Origin: Kineothrix sp. MSJ-39
Lineage (GTDB): Bacteria; Bacillota; Clostridia; Lachnospirales; Lachnospiraceae
Direction: 5' to 3'
Assembly: GCF_018917935.1 (NCBI RefSeq)
Contig: NZ_JAHLPN010000011.1
Span: 1 to 64,000 of the forward strand
Length of the DNA stretch: 64,000 nt
The translations under genes and the position numbers were made by a program. Below, piece by piece: positions 150-62,186 of the stretch; within the stretch, counting starts at the first letter, position 1, and every line of letters starts with the position of its first letter. Under the pieces are notes generated by a model that worked only from the letters and a program-made list of their open reading frames with translations, was not told the DNA's origin and ran no database searches.

Positions 150-178
150 TTGACAGTTCCCGGAGGGTGTCATATAAT
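150..178 (+). promoter_or_regulatory. Sigma-A promoter of the ureide/hydantoin operon
   Basis: An exact -35 box TTGACA (150-155) and an exact -10 box TATAAT (173-178) are separated by 17 nt, so transcription should start near 185. It is the only strong promoter ahead of the transporter and catabolic genes running to 9163, and therefore probably drives that operon. Confidence 0.85.
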
Positions 179-211
179 CCGAATAAATAAAACAAAGCAA
201 GAAAAGCAAAG

Positions 212-243
212 GCGCTTACACAGATTGTGTAAGCGCTATTTTT
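212..243 (+). terminator. Leader terminator or attenuator
   Basis: The arms 212-222 and 226-236 form a perfect 11-bp stem with a GAT loop, followed by a T-rich tract (237-243). It lies only about 27 nt after the predicted transcription start and before the first gene, so most transcripts would end here unless antitermination occurs. It could instead be the end of a very short RNA. No known riboswitch or T-box signature was recognised in the short leader. Confidence 0.75.
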
Positions 244-250
244 TATGAAA

Positions 251-322
251 TGTCATGTATCGAAGATATGTGATGCAGCCTCGGTTCATCTGCAAAGCAG
301 ATTATGCAGGAACCGGGGTTCA
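251..322 (+). repeat. Structured leader element S, copy A
   Basis: This 72-nt segment aligns without gaps to 25517-25588. Hairpin one pairs 254-261 with 265-272 around a GAA loop. Hairpin two pairs 279-287 with 310-318 and 288-293 with 297-302. Differences from the second copy keep the pairing: 258/268 is U-A here and C-G there, and the inner stem ATCTGC/GCAGAT here is ATCGTC/GACGAT there. It lies in the 5' leader of the ABC-transporter operon, just after a terminator. The class is unknown to me; it may be a cis-regulatory RNA or a dispersed palindromic repeat. Confidence 0.7.
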
Positions 323-379: not shown

Positions 380-1120
380 ATGGAAGAAAAAGAAAACGAT
401 ATGATCAGATTAGTCAATGTAAACAAGAGCTTTGGAGATCTTCACGTGCTGAAGGATGTGAATCTGAGCGTGAAGGAAGGAGAAAAACTTGTTATCATCG
501 GTCCGTCCGGTTCCGGAAAATCAACATCGATCCGGTGCATGAACTTTCTGGAACGCCCGACAAGCGGTGATGTTTATATTGCAGGAGAAAAAATGACACA
601 TAAAAACTGCACAAGGCTGATCCGGGAAAATGTATCCATGGTATTCCAGCAGTTTAATCTGTATCCGCACATGACGGTACTTAAAAACCTGACACTGGCA
701 CCTGTCATGCTGAAGCTGGCAAGTAAACAGGAAGCAGAGGAAACCGCTTATAAATATCTGGAGGTTGTCGGACTGAAAAATAAGGCAGATGCCTATCCGA
801 CACAGCTTTCCGGTGGACAGCAGCAGAGAGTGGCGATCGCCAGAGCACTTTGCATGAAGTCAAAGATCATCCTGTTTGATGAGCCGACAAGTGCCTTAGA
901 TCCGGAAATGGTACAGGAAGTACTGGAGGTTATGATAAGACTTTCCAAAGAAAATATCACGATGGTCGTTGTGACACATGAAATGGGATTTGCAAGAGAA
1001 GTGGCAGACAGGATCGTTTTCATGGACGATGGCAGGATCGCTGAGGAAGGAACACCGGAGCATTTCTTTACAAATGCACAGAATAAGCGTACCAGAGAAT
1101 TTTTAAGTAAGATCTTATAA
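380..1120 (+). CDS. Polar amino acid-type ABC transporter ATPase
   Basis: This is the cytoplasmic ATPase of a GlnQ/ArtP-family importer that powers uptake of amino acids or similar small polar solutes. Of its 246 residues, Walker A is GPSGSGKS at 41-48, the signature LSGGQQQR lies near residue 140, and Walker B with D-loop ([11 protein letters not shown]) and the switch histidine (VVTHEMGFA) follow in order. The ATG at 380 was chosen because GAGGTG lies just upstream and family homology begins soon after; an in-frame ATG at 245 would sit in the leader hairpins. The next genes encode its binding protein and two permeases. The substrate cannot be read from sequence, but downstream genes suggest a ureide, hydantoin or carbamoyl amino acid. 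Confidence 0.93.
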
Positions 1121-1187: not shown

Positions 1188-2180
1188 ATGAAGAAACTGG
1201 AATGGATGAAAAAAATGGGTGTGATGACACTGGCAATGGCAATGACAGCAGGCATGCTGACAGGCTGTGGTTCTTCTTCTGAACCTGCAGCAGACAGCGC
1301 GTCAGATGCATCGTCAGCCGAAACAGATGCAGCGACAGATGATGCAGCAACTGATGCATCAGATGCAGGATCAGCCGTAGAAGCGATCAAAGCACGCGGC
1401 GTATTACATTATGGTACAGAAGATTCAGCGCTTGGCTTTGGCTATCTGAATCCTGAAACAAATGAATATGAAGGTCTGGAAGCCGATCTTGGCAGACTGA
1501 TCGCACAGGAGCTTGGTGTCGATGTAGAGTTTACAACAGTTGTGACCAATACAAGAGGTCCGCTCATTGATTCCGGTGATGTGGATATGGTAGCAGCTAC
1601 ATTCACGATCACAGATGAAAGAAAACAGTCATATGACTTTACAGAGCCTTATTACGTAGATGCACAGAGTGTGCTTGTCAATAAAGATTCCGGCCTGAAA
1701 ACAATTGATGATTTCGATGGTAAGAAGATTGCCATGAGCGCGGGCGGTACAGAAAAAGATTCTATTTCCGCTATTACAGATGCCAATATTGAATTTGTGG
1801 AATTCGCAGATTTCTCTGAAGCAAAACTGGCACTGACAGCCGGTACAGTAGACGGCTTTGCAGCTGATAGTTCCATTTTACAGTCTTATGTAGATGATGA
1901 TACAGAATTCATCGAAACAAAATTCAGCCCACAGCCATATGGTATTGCAACAAAGAAAGGTTCTGACCTGTCAGCTTATGTCAATGAGCTTGTACAGAAA
2001 TGGTTAGAGGATGGCACGATCGACGGACTGATCGAGAAGAACGGTATCCAGCCTTCTTATGAAGAGCCAGCAGCTACTGAAGAACCTGCAGCAGAAGCAA
2101 CAGACGCAGCTACTGAAGAGCCGGCAGCAGAGGCAACAGATGCAGCTACTGACGAAGCAACAGATGAGGCAGCAGAATAA
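1188..2180 (+). CDS. Family 3 extracellular solute-binding lipoprotein
   Basis: This is the lipid-anchored binding protein of the importer. A signal peptide ends in a lipobox with Cys27 (MLTGC), followed by an Ala/Asp/Ser/Thr-rich linker and a SBP_bac_3-type domain (about 65-285). That domain carries hallmarks such as the DMVAATFTIT segment, where these proteins contact the ligand backbone. The 330-residue length exceeds the usual 260-280 because of an acidic C-terminal tail built from a 12-residue unit (EEPAAEATDAAT) present twice. The start at 1188 follows AAGGAGGAATAACATT. It lies 67 nt after the ATPase, and a stable hairpin follows the gene, which may raise its mRNA level over the permeases. 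Confidence 0.93.
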   Translation: MKKLEWMKKMGVMTLAMAMTAGMLTGCGSSSEPAADSASDASSAETDAATDDAATDASDAGSAVEAIKARGVLHYGTEDSALGFGYLNPETNEYEGLEADLGRLIAQELGVDVEFTTVVTNTRGPLIDSGDVDMVAATFTITDERKQSYDFTEPYYVDAQSVLVNKDSGLKTIDDFDGKKIAMSAGGTEKDSISAITDANIEFVEFADFSEAKLALTAGTVDGFAADSSILQSYVDDDTEFIETKFSPQPYGIATKKGSDLSAYVNELVQKWLEDGTIDGLIEKNGIQPSYEEPAATEEPAAEATDAATEEPAAEATDAATDEATDEAAE

Positions 2181-4299: not shown

Positions 4300-5481
4300 A
4301 TGGAGACAGAAAGTTTGAAGGACAGAATGCTGCATATTGCACAGATCGGACAGGAAGCAGATGGCAGTATCAGCCGCGTATTCGGTTCCGATGCCTATGA
4401 AGAGGCTGCAAAAGAAATGCAGGCATATATGCAGGCATCGGGTATGGAAAGCTACATAGACAGTGTCGGTAATGTGCATGGGATCTATCGCTGCAGGCAG
4501 GAACATGCAAAGGAAATATTGATAGCCTCCCATCTGGATACGGTATTGCACGGCGGCGTCTTTGACGGGCTGCTTGGTGTCATGGCAGGGATCGAATGTG
4601 TCAGAAGGCTGCAGGAAGAAGGCAGAGAGCTTTTTGTGGATGTGCATGTGATCGCGACAAACGGCGAGGAAGGCAATGAACTCGGCGGTACATTCGGCGG
4701 ACGTGCCATGATGGGTATGCTGCCTGAGACGGCAGCGTTTTATGCGCTGGCAGAAAAGTATGGCTATACAAAAGAAAAACTTGCGCAGGCACTGTATGAT
4801 ACAAGCCGCTGCATGTGCTATCTGGAGCTGCATATCGAGCAGGGCAATCTGCTGGAAAAGGAGCACAGACAGATCGGTGTCGTTACAGGCATCGTCGGAC
4901 TGGAACGTTACAATGTGACAATAGACGGACAGAGCAACCATGCGGGCACAACGATGATGGAGTACAGAGATGATGCACTTGTTAAGGCTGGAAAGTTCAT
5001 TACAGCAATGGATCAGAAAGCGAGAGAGATCGGCGACAGGCTCGTCTGTACGTGCAGCAGACTTTCGGTAGAACCGAATGTACTGGCAGTCATCAACAGA
5101 CAGGTTTCCATGGTGCTGGAGTGCAGAAACCAGAAAAAAGAACGGATGCGGGAACTGATCCGGGCAGCAGAAGAGCTGCTGGAAAAACTGCATGGTACGA
5201 TCGGCTGTCTGGTGCAGAAGGATCCGGTGGACTGTGATCCAAAGATCGTGCAGACGATGGAAGGCATCTGCCGGGAAAGAAAAATCGCATATCAGGACAT
5301 GCCAAGCGGTGCGACCCATGACGGGAACAGCTTCGCGAAGAAAATGCCGATCGGCATGTTATTTGTACCAAGTAAAAACGGACTGAGCCATTGCAAAGAA
5401 GAAGCGACGGACTGGGACGATATCGCACTTGGTATTTCTGTATTGTATGAGACACTGCTCAGACTGGGGCAGGCGGAATAA
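4300..5481 (+). CDS. M20 family Zn amidohydrolase (allantoate amidohydrolase or N-carbamoyl amino acid hydrolase)
   Basis: A cytoplasmic binuclear-metal hydrolase of the AllC/HyuC group, 393 residues. The metal-ligand motifs occur in order: SHLDTVLHGGVFDG, TNGEEGNELGG, LELHIEQG and a late GLSHCKEE histidine. A lid dimerisation domain contains DGQSNHAGTTMM. The usual substrate motif SGAGHDA reads SGATHDG here, which may signal a changed substrate. The enzyme would split allantoate or an N-carbamoyl amino acid, releasing ammonia and CO2. The neighbouring cyclic amidohydrolase would supply that substrate by ring opening. The start has GGAGGCAGAGG upstream. Confidence 0.85.
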   Translation: METESLKDRMLHIAQIGQEADGSISRVFGSDAYEEAAKEMQAYMQASGMESYIDSVGNVHGIYRCRQEHAKEILIASHLDTVLHGGVFDGLLGVMAGIECVRRLQEEGRELFVDVHVIATNGEEGNELGGTFGGRAMMGMLPETAAFYALAEKYGYTKEKLAQALYDTSRCMCYLELHIEQGNLLEKEHRQIGVVTGIVGLERYNVTIDGQSNHAGTTMMEYRDDALVKAGKFITAMDQKAREIGDRLVCTCSRLSVEPNVLAVINRQVSMVLECRNQKKERMRELIRAAEELLEKLHGTIGCLVQKDPVDCDPKIVQTMEGICRERKIAYQDMPSGATHDGNSFAKKMPIGMLFVPSKNGLSHCKEEATDWDDIALGISVLYETLLRLGQAE

Positions 5482-25486: not shown

Positions 25487-25718
25487 AATGAGCGCTAAAG
25501 AAAAACAAGCGACAACTGTCATGCATCGAAGATGCATGATGTAGCCACGGCTCATCGTCGTAGACGATTATGCATGAGCAGTGGTTCATGACAGGTGGCA
25601 TTTGTTTTTCTGGCGCCATTAGCGAACGAATATCCTGCAAGGGATACCGTAGCAGGATGTGGAGTGCGATAGCACGGATTTGTGAGCAAATACATAATGA
25701 GCACCAAAGAAAAACAAG
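25485..25718 (+). repeat. Direct repeats flanking a structured leader segment
   Basis: The 25-mers at 25485-25509 and 25694-25718 match at 23 positions (ATAATGAGC, then AAAGAAAAACAAG). They bracket 184 nt containing element S, an ATCCTGC/GCAGGAT hairpin (about 25632-25659) and a GTGC-GATA-GCAC hairpin near 25664-25675. The layout could reflect insertion of a small non-autonomous element with duplication of its surroundings, or a local tandem duplication. Confidence 0.6.
25517..25588 (+). repeat. Structured leader element S, copy B
   Basis: The ungapped partner of 251-322. Hairpin one pairs 25520-25527 with 25531-25538 perfectly around GAA. Hairpin two pairs 25545-25553 with 25576-25584 (one G-A mismatch) and 25554-25559 with 25563-25568. 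An extra closing helix CTGTCATG/CATGACAG (25516-25523 with 25587-25594) is alternative to hairpin one. It lies in the leader of the GH13 gene. Confidence 0.7.
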
Positions 25719-25755: not shown

Positions 25756-27069
25756 ATGTGGGCATATGAAAGCGTGTTTTATCAGATTTATCCGCTGGGC
25801 TTTTGCGGGGCACCGTTTGAAAACGACGGTGTGGAAGTAAACAGAATCCAGAAAGTGATCGACTGGATCCCGCACATCAAAAAGCTGGGAGCAAATGCGA
25901 TCTACTTCTCGCCGGTATTTGAATCTGATACGCATGGCTATAACACAAGAGATTATACAAAGATCGATAAGCGCCTTGGCACAAATGCAGATTTTGCTAA
26001 AGTATGTGCTGCATTACATAAGGAAGGTATCCGTGTGGTGCTGGACGGTGTGTTCAATCATGTGGGTAGAGGATTCTGGGCATTTCAGGATGTTTTGCAG
26101 AATCGTGAGAATTCCCGGTATAAAGACTGGTTTGCCCGGATCGATTTCGGTGGCAATTCCAATTATAATGACGGGCTCTGGTATGAAGGCTGGGAAGGCA
26201 ACTATGATCTGGTCAAGTTAAACCTCAGAAACGAAGAGGTGGTACAGCACATTTTCAGTGCGATCAAGGGCTGGATCGAAGAATTTGATATCGATGGACT
26301 GCGTCTGGATGTGGCATATTGTCTGGACGAAGACTTCGCAAGACGTCTGCGGAGCTTCTGTGACAGTCAGAAGCAGGACTTCTTCTTAGTAGGAGAAATG
26401 CTGCACGGTGATTATAACAGAATGATGAATGACCAGATGTTCCACTCCGTAACGAATTACGAGTGCTACAAAGGCTTGTTCTCCAGCTTCAACAGCATGA
26501 ATATGTTTGAGATCGTTCATTCTCTGCTGCGTCAGTTTGGACCGGAGAATTGGACGTTATATAAAGGGAAACATCTGTTATCATTTGTAGATAACCATGA
26601 TGTTTCGAGAATTGCAAGCAATCTGACAAACGAAAAGCATCTGCCACTCATCTATGCCATGATGTTCGGTATGCCGGGTATCCCATGTGTTTATTACGGA
26701 AGCGAATGGGGCGCAAAGGCAAATAAGAGCGAGGGCGATCCGGCACTTAGGGCAAGCTTTGACGCACCTGTCTATAATGAACTGTCTGCTTTCATCACAA
26801 AGCTGGCAGAAGCAAAGAAGAACAGCGAAGCACTGAACTATGGCAGCTTCCGCAGTGTGGTACTGACAAACAGACAGTGCATCTTTGCAAGAGAAACAGC
26901 AAATGAAAGAGTTTTTGTGGCGATCAATGCGGATGAAAACAGCTATACAGCACATTTTGATGCTGGCTGTGGACAGGCTGTTGATTTAATAACAGGTGAT
27001 ACACATGATTTCGGCGGTGGCAGCGAGCTGGCACCGTACAGTGCGGCATTTTGGAAAACGGAGCGATAA
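25756..27069 (+). CDS. GH13 alpha-amylase family enzyme (cytoplasmic)
   Basis: A 437-residue glycoside hydrolase of the alpha-amylase superfamily without a signal peptide, so it acts inside the cell on imported maltodextrins. Catalytic regions are complete: region I D97-GVFN-H102, region II GLRLDVAYCLD with nucleophile Asp185, region III LVGEMLHGDY with acid Glu214, and region IV FVDNHD with Asp282. The short C-terminal domain is a beta sandwich. Maltogenic amylase, neopullulanase or oligo-glucosidase activity are all possible. Its TAA stop directly abuts the ATG of the next ABC gene, so an export module is coupled to it. The start has AAGAGGAA upstream. Confidence 0.88.
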   Translation: MWAYESVFYQIYPLGFCGAPFENDGVEVNRIQKVIDWIPHIKKLGANAIYFSPVFESDTHGYNTRDYTKIDKRLGTNADFAKVCAALHKEGIRVVLDGVFNHVGRGFWAFQDVLQNRENSRYKDWFARIDFGGNSNYNDGLWYEGWEGNYDLVKLNLRNEEVVQHIFSAIKGWIEEFDIDGLRLDVAYCLDEDFARRLRSFCDSQKQDFFLVGEMLHGDYNRMMNDQMFHSVTNYECYKGLFSSFNSMNMFEIVHSLLRQFGPENWTLYKGKHLLSFVDNHDVSRIASNLTNEKHLPLIYAMMFGMPGIPCVYYGSEWGAKANKSEGDPALRASFDAPVYNELSAFITKLAEAKKNSEALNYGSFRSVVLTNRQCIFARETANERVFVAINADENSYTAHFDAGCGQAVDLITGDTHDFGGGSELAPYSAAFWKTER

Positions 27070-51301: not shown

Positions 51302-51339
51302 AGCCATCAGTTGTACAAAAGTATGACTGATGGCTCTTG
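51302..51339 (+). terminator. Weak terminator after valS
   Basis: A perfect 10-bp stem (51302-51311 with 51326-51335) with a 14-nt loop and a short, interrupted T-tract (CTTGT). Immediately after, 51338-51352 matches the first 15 bases of structured element S at 14 positions. Confidence 0.6.
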
Positions 51340-51361
51340 TCGTGCATCGAAGGAAATTCAA

Positions 51362-62022: not shown

Positions 62023-62186
62023 AGAAACATCATATAGCAAGCAATCGATAGCGTAGGCGACTGAGATTTATCGCTCGTTTACCCGGCGGCGAGATCGAAA
62101 CGCTCTTTTTCGACCAGAGCCAGGTAAAATACGAGCAAGATAAATCGCAAGGTAGCCAAGCGTGATTGCGGCTATATGATGTTTCT
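62023..62186. repeat. 164-nt imperfect palindrome after aspartokinase
   Basis: The outer arms 62023-62038 and 62171-62186 are exact 16-nt reverse complements. GCAATC (62041-62046) pairs with GATTGC (62164-62169), and GATTTAT-CG-CTCGT (62065-62078) pairs with ACGAG-CAAG-ATAAATC (62131-62146). The tip holds GATCGAAACGCTCTTTTTCGACC. It could be a large stem-loop in the operon's 3' end or a non-autonomous palindromic element. No gene lies within it. Confidence 0.75.

Follow-up and report, generated by a model that had tools for sequence, protein, structure and literature searches.

Element S, which was first noticed as a pair of similar hairpin structures in a window of 64,000 nucleotides of Kineothrix sp. 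MSJ-39 DNA (the whole stretch analysed), is a dispersed repeat and not a two-copy leader RNA. Its base pairing is strongly supported as being maintained across a family that extends to other Lachnospiraceae genera, and its architecture, position and spread recall those of REP sequences. S is therefore best regarded as probably a non-autonomous, REP-like, transcribed repeat of Lachnospiraceae (Bacillota), whose spread and role as a structured spacer we in part infer.

Element S in the window and in its own genome

Covariance model R1 was built from ten copies of S, and model R2 from 41. The repeat unit (about 72-76 nt) consists, in order, of AATGT, a hairpin P1 of nine or more pairs whose sequence is very variable, TG[T/C]AG, an imperfect palindrome P2/P3 whose 3′ bulge reads roughly TTNTNCATG, and GTTC, usually followed by C. 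Both copies in the window (Table 1) fold better than all 200 dinucleotide shuffles (z -4.4 and -4.0). The outer arms that place copy 2 at the tip of a longer hairpin form a flank duplex of -23.2 kcal/mol, and a local BLAST of these arms found them again at C1:184487, where they enclose merely a P1-like hairpin.

Table 1. Features of element S and its surroundings in the window
Feature	Positions	Strand	Basis
Sigma-A type promoter TTGACA-17-TATAAT, upstream of S copy 1	150..178	+	promoter scan
Terminator-like hairpin and T-run, directly upstream of S copy 1	211..245	+	
S copy 1, whole model span	247..322	+	R1 90.6 bits; alignment
S copy 1, hairpin P1 (253-261 with 265-273, loop GAA 262-264)	253..273	+	fold, pair counts
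S copy 1, tag GCAG (G[T/C]AG type; at the P2 base its A and G can also be paired, as A-U and G.U)	275..278	+	
S copy 1, imperfect palindrome (P2 277-287/310-320, P3 288-293/297-302, 3′ bulge 303-309)	277..320	+	pair counts
ABC transporter ATPase gene, downstream of S copy 1	380..1120	+	Pfam PF00005
Solute-binding protein family 3, next gene after the ABC transporter ATPase gene	1188-2180		Pfam PF00497
Outer long hairpin with S copy 2 at its tip (arms about 25492-25512 and 25589-25617)	25492..25617	+	duplex, BLAST
S copy 2, whole model span	25513..25588	+	R1 93.6 bits
S copy 2, hairpin P1	25519..25539	+	fold, pair counts
S copy 2, tag GTAG	25541..25544	+	sequence
S copy 2, imperfect palindrome P2/P3 with 7-nt 3′ bulge	25543..25586	+	fold, pair counts
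GH13 (alpha-amylase family) gene, downstream of S copy 2	25756..27069	+	Pfam PF00128
Repeat B, uninterrupted copy (reference for the copies that S splits)	62039..62170	+	

The earlier note on this DNA had aligned 251-322 with 25517-25588 without gaps, an alignment that we reproduce with a model span slightly longer at the 5′ side, and the paired changes it listed (T258-A268, T285-A312, and the inner stem ATCTGC/GCAGAT versus ATCGTC/GACGAT) are correct. Its description of S as a two-copy element does not hold, as R1 finds 48 matches genome-wide at E<0.003, of which the window contains two. A supposed third partial copy at 51338-51352 is absent from the genome-wide model matches even at E<=10, and the GAA loop and TTATGCA segment, taken to be conserved from two copies, vary across the family, in which the loops differ and the 3′ bulge is approximately TTNTNCATG. 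The sigma-A promoter said to precede both copies is present for copy 1 as a perfect TTGACA-17-TATAAT, though a terminator-like hairpin intervenes; before copy 2 no sense-strand promoter reaches the scan threshold, and a TATAAT is discernible by eye only. As a separate observation, the perfect promoter and subsequent terminator-like hairpin at 150-245 lie before amino-acid type ABC transporter genes and may constitute an attenuator.

Across the 2.99-Mb, 54-contig assembly of its own genome (G000), BLAST with copy 2 returned 34 matches, and R1 returned 70 at E<=10, including the 48 mentioned above. Among the 41 stronger copies, 38 do not overlap a predicted gene and three overlap a predicted gene end; the tag reads GTAG in 19 of the 41 and GCAG in 20, as compared with 32 and 13 of 48 copies from other genera. 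Copies also occur in direct tandem, with a head-to-tail array of five at C5:73913-74285. Arrays and single sites often close with a partial copy comprising P1 plus GTAGC or P1 alone (L262, L085, L106, L094). Two copies, at C2:32979 and C5:4131, share the flanks CAACCGAGCGTACA...CGGAGAGAAAAACAGAAGCAGCATAGCTG and belong to a larger composite repeat.

Base pairing is maintained across the family

Among the 41 copies from the own genome (38 distinct), 97.4% of cells pair and 22 of the 26 pairs change on both sides. The alignment holds 188 two-sided changed cells, as against a shuffled mean of 48, with none of 500 shuffles as high, and slid controls on the same alignment give 31-40% pairing. An alignment of 57 copies from nine genomes of other genera, fitted to the model and including six rows (from G158 and G449) that represent a related but different element, gives a similar picture: pairing holds in 96.3% of cells, two-sided changes affect 23 of the 26 pairs, and the 378 two-sided changed cells are again matched by none of 500 shuffles. 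The covariance-model search that the earlier note had proposed as a check thus yields matches that covary above shuffles both in the own genome and elsewhere, and the selected structure it had suggested is strongly supported as selected, or at least maintained.

At the base of P2 the pairs A-U, G.U and C-G are retained. Since the G.U is present in 37 of 38 own copies, these positions look conserved as sequence, as part of the tag, and not by pairing alone. With this constant pair excluded, G.T cells outnumber A.C cells by 43 to 6 in the cross-genus alignment (16 of the 43 fall at one pair), which suggests that the strand that folds is that of the element, whether RNA or single-stranded DNA; the corresponding figures of 8 and 5 in the own genome are not decisive. 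The earlier note could not name the type of structure, and Rfam 15 likewise contains no family that reaches its gathering score in either the window or nine loci of other genomes, nor one at E<=1 around copy 2.

Distribution among genomes

S is found in many Lachnospiraceae genomes, and its presence is patchy at the species level. A search of 145 relatives with R1 matched four genomes, the own genome included. R2 gives matches at E<=0.01 in 29 of 397 Lachnospiraceae genomes, again with the own genome included and with some weak members that match P2/P3 only, and among 398 genomes drawn across the phylum the own genome alone matches at E<=0.001. Both R2 searches used stricter filters than a count in 12 chosen genomes, in which laxer filters gave 22 copies each in G263 and G391, 10 in G321, nine in G291, seven in G156, six in G304 and two in G147, and no match in G001, G003, G005, G008 or G009. 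As G001 is a sister species in the own genus (84% complete) and G009 belongs to the same genus as G391, the presence of S changes between sister species.

Exact-pattern scans for the commonest form of P1 returned no match in GTDB species genomes (from which the own genome was possibly omitted) and viral contigs, and BLAST with S against plasmids returned none. The phage BLAST gave a short, chance-like match, of 25 bases among the top matches listed, in a resolvase/D14 gene, and was set aside. The open-licence literature that we searched yielded no description of such a repeat family in Lachnospiraceae.

Two observations concern individual genomes. Copies of S lie between tandem flagellin genes in G391 (L274:1501-1743, 2843-2922 and 5170-5247). 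The related element of G158 and G449 (L229, L278, L279, L280, L230) is about 150 nt long, with inverted ends GTAACTATTCAGTA...TACTGAACAGTTAC and a P2/P3-like hairpin inside, and is possibly a MITE that shares a module with S.

Position and orientation relative to genes

Statistically, S prefers the sense strand of neighbouring genes and a position a few bases after a stop codon. Of 31 independent loci in the own genome, 24 run in the direction of most of the genes around them (p 0.003), and five are antisense to both neighbours, which weakens the case for an obligatory RNA role. The 35 loci from seven other genomes include 25 that are sense to both neighbours and four that are antisense to both (p 1e-4), three of these four being in G321. 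Among the sense loci, 12 of 25 in other genomes begin no more than 6 nt from a stop codon (4.3 expected), as do four of 11 in the own genome (1.1 expected), counts that come from a simple gene caller with some overlapping loci left out. Many copies lie 16-60 nt upstream of the next gene, and the neighbours in the own genome are mixed and functionally unrelated. The sense bias can result from selection or from the insertion mechanism; because GC skew tracks the gene majority in the own genome, orientation to the replication strand and orientation to the gene strand are inseparable there.

Ends, insertion and nesting in other repeats

S has sharp ends: information content outside AATG...GTTCC is near zero, with the exception of a weak T at -5, and the flanks exhibit no target consensus. 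Its two conserved ends, AATGT and GTTCC, are not reverse complements of each other, and S contains no terminal inverted repeats. At 20 isolated loci in the own genome there is no sign of a target duplication (mean 3.85 versus 3.83 permuted; 485 of 1000 permutations as high). Copies in G071 alone are suggestive of one, being flanked by direct repeats of 7-10 nt such as TTATATCATG and variants of it (L192, L197, L201, L202, L207; 2 of 1000 permutations as high). These direct repeats share one motif, however, and may belong to the repeat unit.

Several copies are inserted into other palindromic repeats. Repeat B (GCAATCGATAGTGTAG...GGGTAGNCAAACGTGATTGC; about 130 bp) is present in the own genome as 13 uninterrupted copies, among them C2:183010 and C31:13549, and as seven copies split by S. 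It lies within arms of 15-20 bp that differ between copies yet remain complementary. S occupies the tip loop, after CGCTTTT or variants, in five of the seven split copies, and is inverted and placed elsewhere in the other two. No uninterrupted B was found in G001, G071, G321 or G391, and B has no Rfam match at a meaningful score. At C2:213763 S also occupies the loop of what looks like a terminator, and it is itself a host for a hairpin repeat, H, which is nested in S loops at C8:31439, C2:28869 and C14:25905. Repeat H (TTGTCRCATATTTGCG...CAAATGTGCGAC, frequently with AACCTGCGNAGCAGGTT after it) occurs alone or in S loops (L084:4102-4132, L077:898-954, L105:4022-4059, L102:6959-7161). A test for complementarity between the flanks of S was exceeded or equaled by one of 500 permutations, a result inflated by the seven B-hosted loci, which are not independent.

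On the basis of these nested insertions and the patchy presence described above, S appears to move. The GH13 locus of the sister species was considered as an orthologous empty site and rejected, as the best GH13 match there, a 612-aa frame with 45% identity, is not an orthologue.

Likeness to REPs and to other known elements

The best-known REP-type repeats are those of Proteobacteria, which occur alongside RAYT enzymes; REPs usually pair in opposite orientation, unlike S, whose arrays run head-to-tail. According to excerpts of PMC8266576, REPs are palindromes of 20-50 nt that follow a tetranucleotide, most often GTAG, with bulges in group 2 and recognition as one single strand. Excerpts of two further papers place REPs inside other palindromes (PMC3733652) and report that ribosomes can stall at REPs within 15 nt of a stop codon (PMC12306157). 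S shares much of this description of the REP/REPIN/BIME (GTAG) superfamily, including a small palindrome with an irregular zone or bulge (here P2/P3 with its 3′ bulge), a four-base tag 5′ of that palindrome, multiple intergenic copies (48 matches, with 38 of the 41 stronger copies outside genes) that often lie near stop codons and sometimes within other palindromes, and, as a presumed property of S by comparison with known REPs, recognition on one strand. It differs in its G[T/C]AG tag, in the additional variable hairpin P1 fused 5′ of the tag, and in its Lachnospiraceae hosts. PMC3733652 names Proteobacteria, Cyanobacteria, Chloroflexi and the PVC group as hosts of GTAG repeats, with neither 'firmicutes' nor 'clostridi' occurring in its text, and an excerpt of PMC6006769 lists Clostridia among the hosts of subclass 1.1 Y1 proteins.

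A cognate TnpA-REP (RAYT) gene flanked by S repeats was not found. Of nine clear carriers tested, six (G000, G071, G147, G263, G291 and G321) have no Y1_Tnp domain (PF01797) and three (G156, G304 and G391) have one; the domain is also missing from the weak, mostly P2/P3-only carriers G068, G203 and G393. Around 15 Y1 loci of other genomes, R2 detected no S within about 1.5 kb at E<=1. Because six of nine carriers have no PF01797 and no S lies near Y1 genes, a Y1/RAYT enzyme was rejected as the present mover for most carriers. In its architecture, position and spread S behaves as REPs do; we do not claim membership in the REP family since the RAYT is mostly missing, the Y1 genes are without S, half of the own tags are GCAG, and there is an extra hairpin.

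Other classes of elements are less similar. Bacterial MITEs (RUP, NEMIS, bcr1, ERIC and others treated in the excerpt of PMC3733652) are likewise small, non-coding, mobile-looking repeats that are often transcribed, but S fails to qualify as one because it has no inverted repeats and no target duplication in its own genome. The ends of IS200/IS605 elements, as described in part of PMC8266576, also combine hairpins with a short 5′ guide-like tetranucleotide, whereas the own genome of S has no tnpA and the flanks of S are nearly information-free apart from the weak T. With riboswitches and other Rfam leader RNAs S shares a covarying two-hairpin RNA in 5′ leaders, yet it is dispersed, has no Rfam match, and cannot be placed among them because it is not associated with functionally related genes. 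The AGC/GUU base of P2 is reminiscent of group II intron domain V, a likeness that was set aside because the bulge of S is 7 nt long and the G071 form lacks this base.

Discussion

The explanation that we favor, and hold to be probable, is that S spreads as a hairpin that a trans-acting factor would recognize on one single strand, in the manner of REPs, with this factor being something other than a Y1 transposase in most clear carriers. Where S lies between two genes of an operon it would be transcribed as a structured spacer, which by comparison with E. coli REPs may protect the 3′ end of the upstream message and/or slow ribosomes at the stop codon. An unlikely variant is that S is a standard GTAG REP family whose RAYT was lost or is not covered by the draft assemblies. 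The tag and bulged palindrome, the high intergenic copy number and the insertion in palindromes would all fit, but Y1_Tnp is missing from most clear carriers, no S adjoins the Y1 genes of other genomes, and half of the own tags are GCAG. The small size, non-coding character, multiple copies and sharp ends of S, together with the direct repeats in G071 and the related modules of G158 within elements bearing GTAACT...AGTTAC inverted ends, could suggest a classical MITE moved by a DDE transposase; given the lack of terminal inverted repeats and of target duplication at the 20 own loci, and a shared motif in the G071 repeats that may be part of the repeat unit, this origin seems improbable. There is a slim chance that S is instead a mobile RNA-strand element whose spread needs no Y1 transposase and is coupled to transcription or translation, through copying of the sense strand, or insertion targeted to it, at stop codons and into hairpin loops.

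Two further explanations address the structure itself. Template-switch or palindrome-correction mutation is a mechanism that keeps hairpin arms complementary in DNA, and if it acted here the arms would match with no selection on structure. The P1 arms are indeed wholly different between copies and yet near-perfect, even within arrays; such correction would not reach the conserved tag, 3′ bulge and GTTC end, however, which are not part of the arms, and the excess of G.T over A.C in other genera and the sense bias also speak against this account, which we consider very unlikely. It is more doubtful still that S is a cis-regulatory leader RNA (a riboswitch, attenuator or protein-binding leader) of the transporter and GH13 operons, as the earlier note implied. 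Strong covariation, the sense bias and the many copies 16-60 nt before the next gene would be expected of such an RNA, but the neighboring genes are unrelated, some copies are antisense, arrays hold up to five copies, and others lie at upstream stop codons or inside other repeats, with none in the sister species.

The combination of REP architecture, a fused hairpin and a preference for the sense strand and stop codons, often without Y1, in a major gut family would raise the questions of what moves S and of how it affects operon expression; the covariance model makes both testable. Should S prove to be a mobile RNA-strand element, it would represent a movable intercistronic control hairpin for Lachnospiraceae operons. 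More generally, the family is a caution that covarying leader hairpins can be mobile repeats and not regulators.
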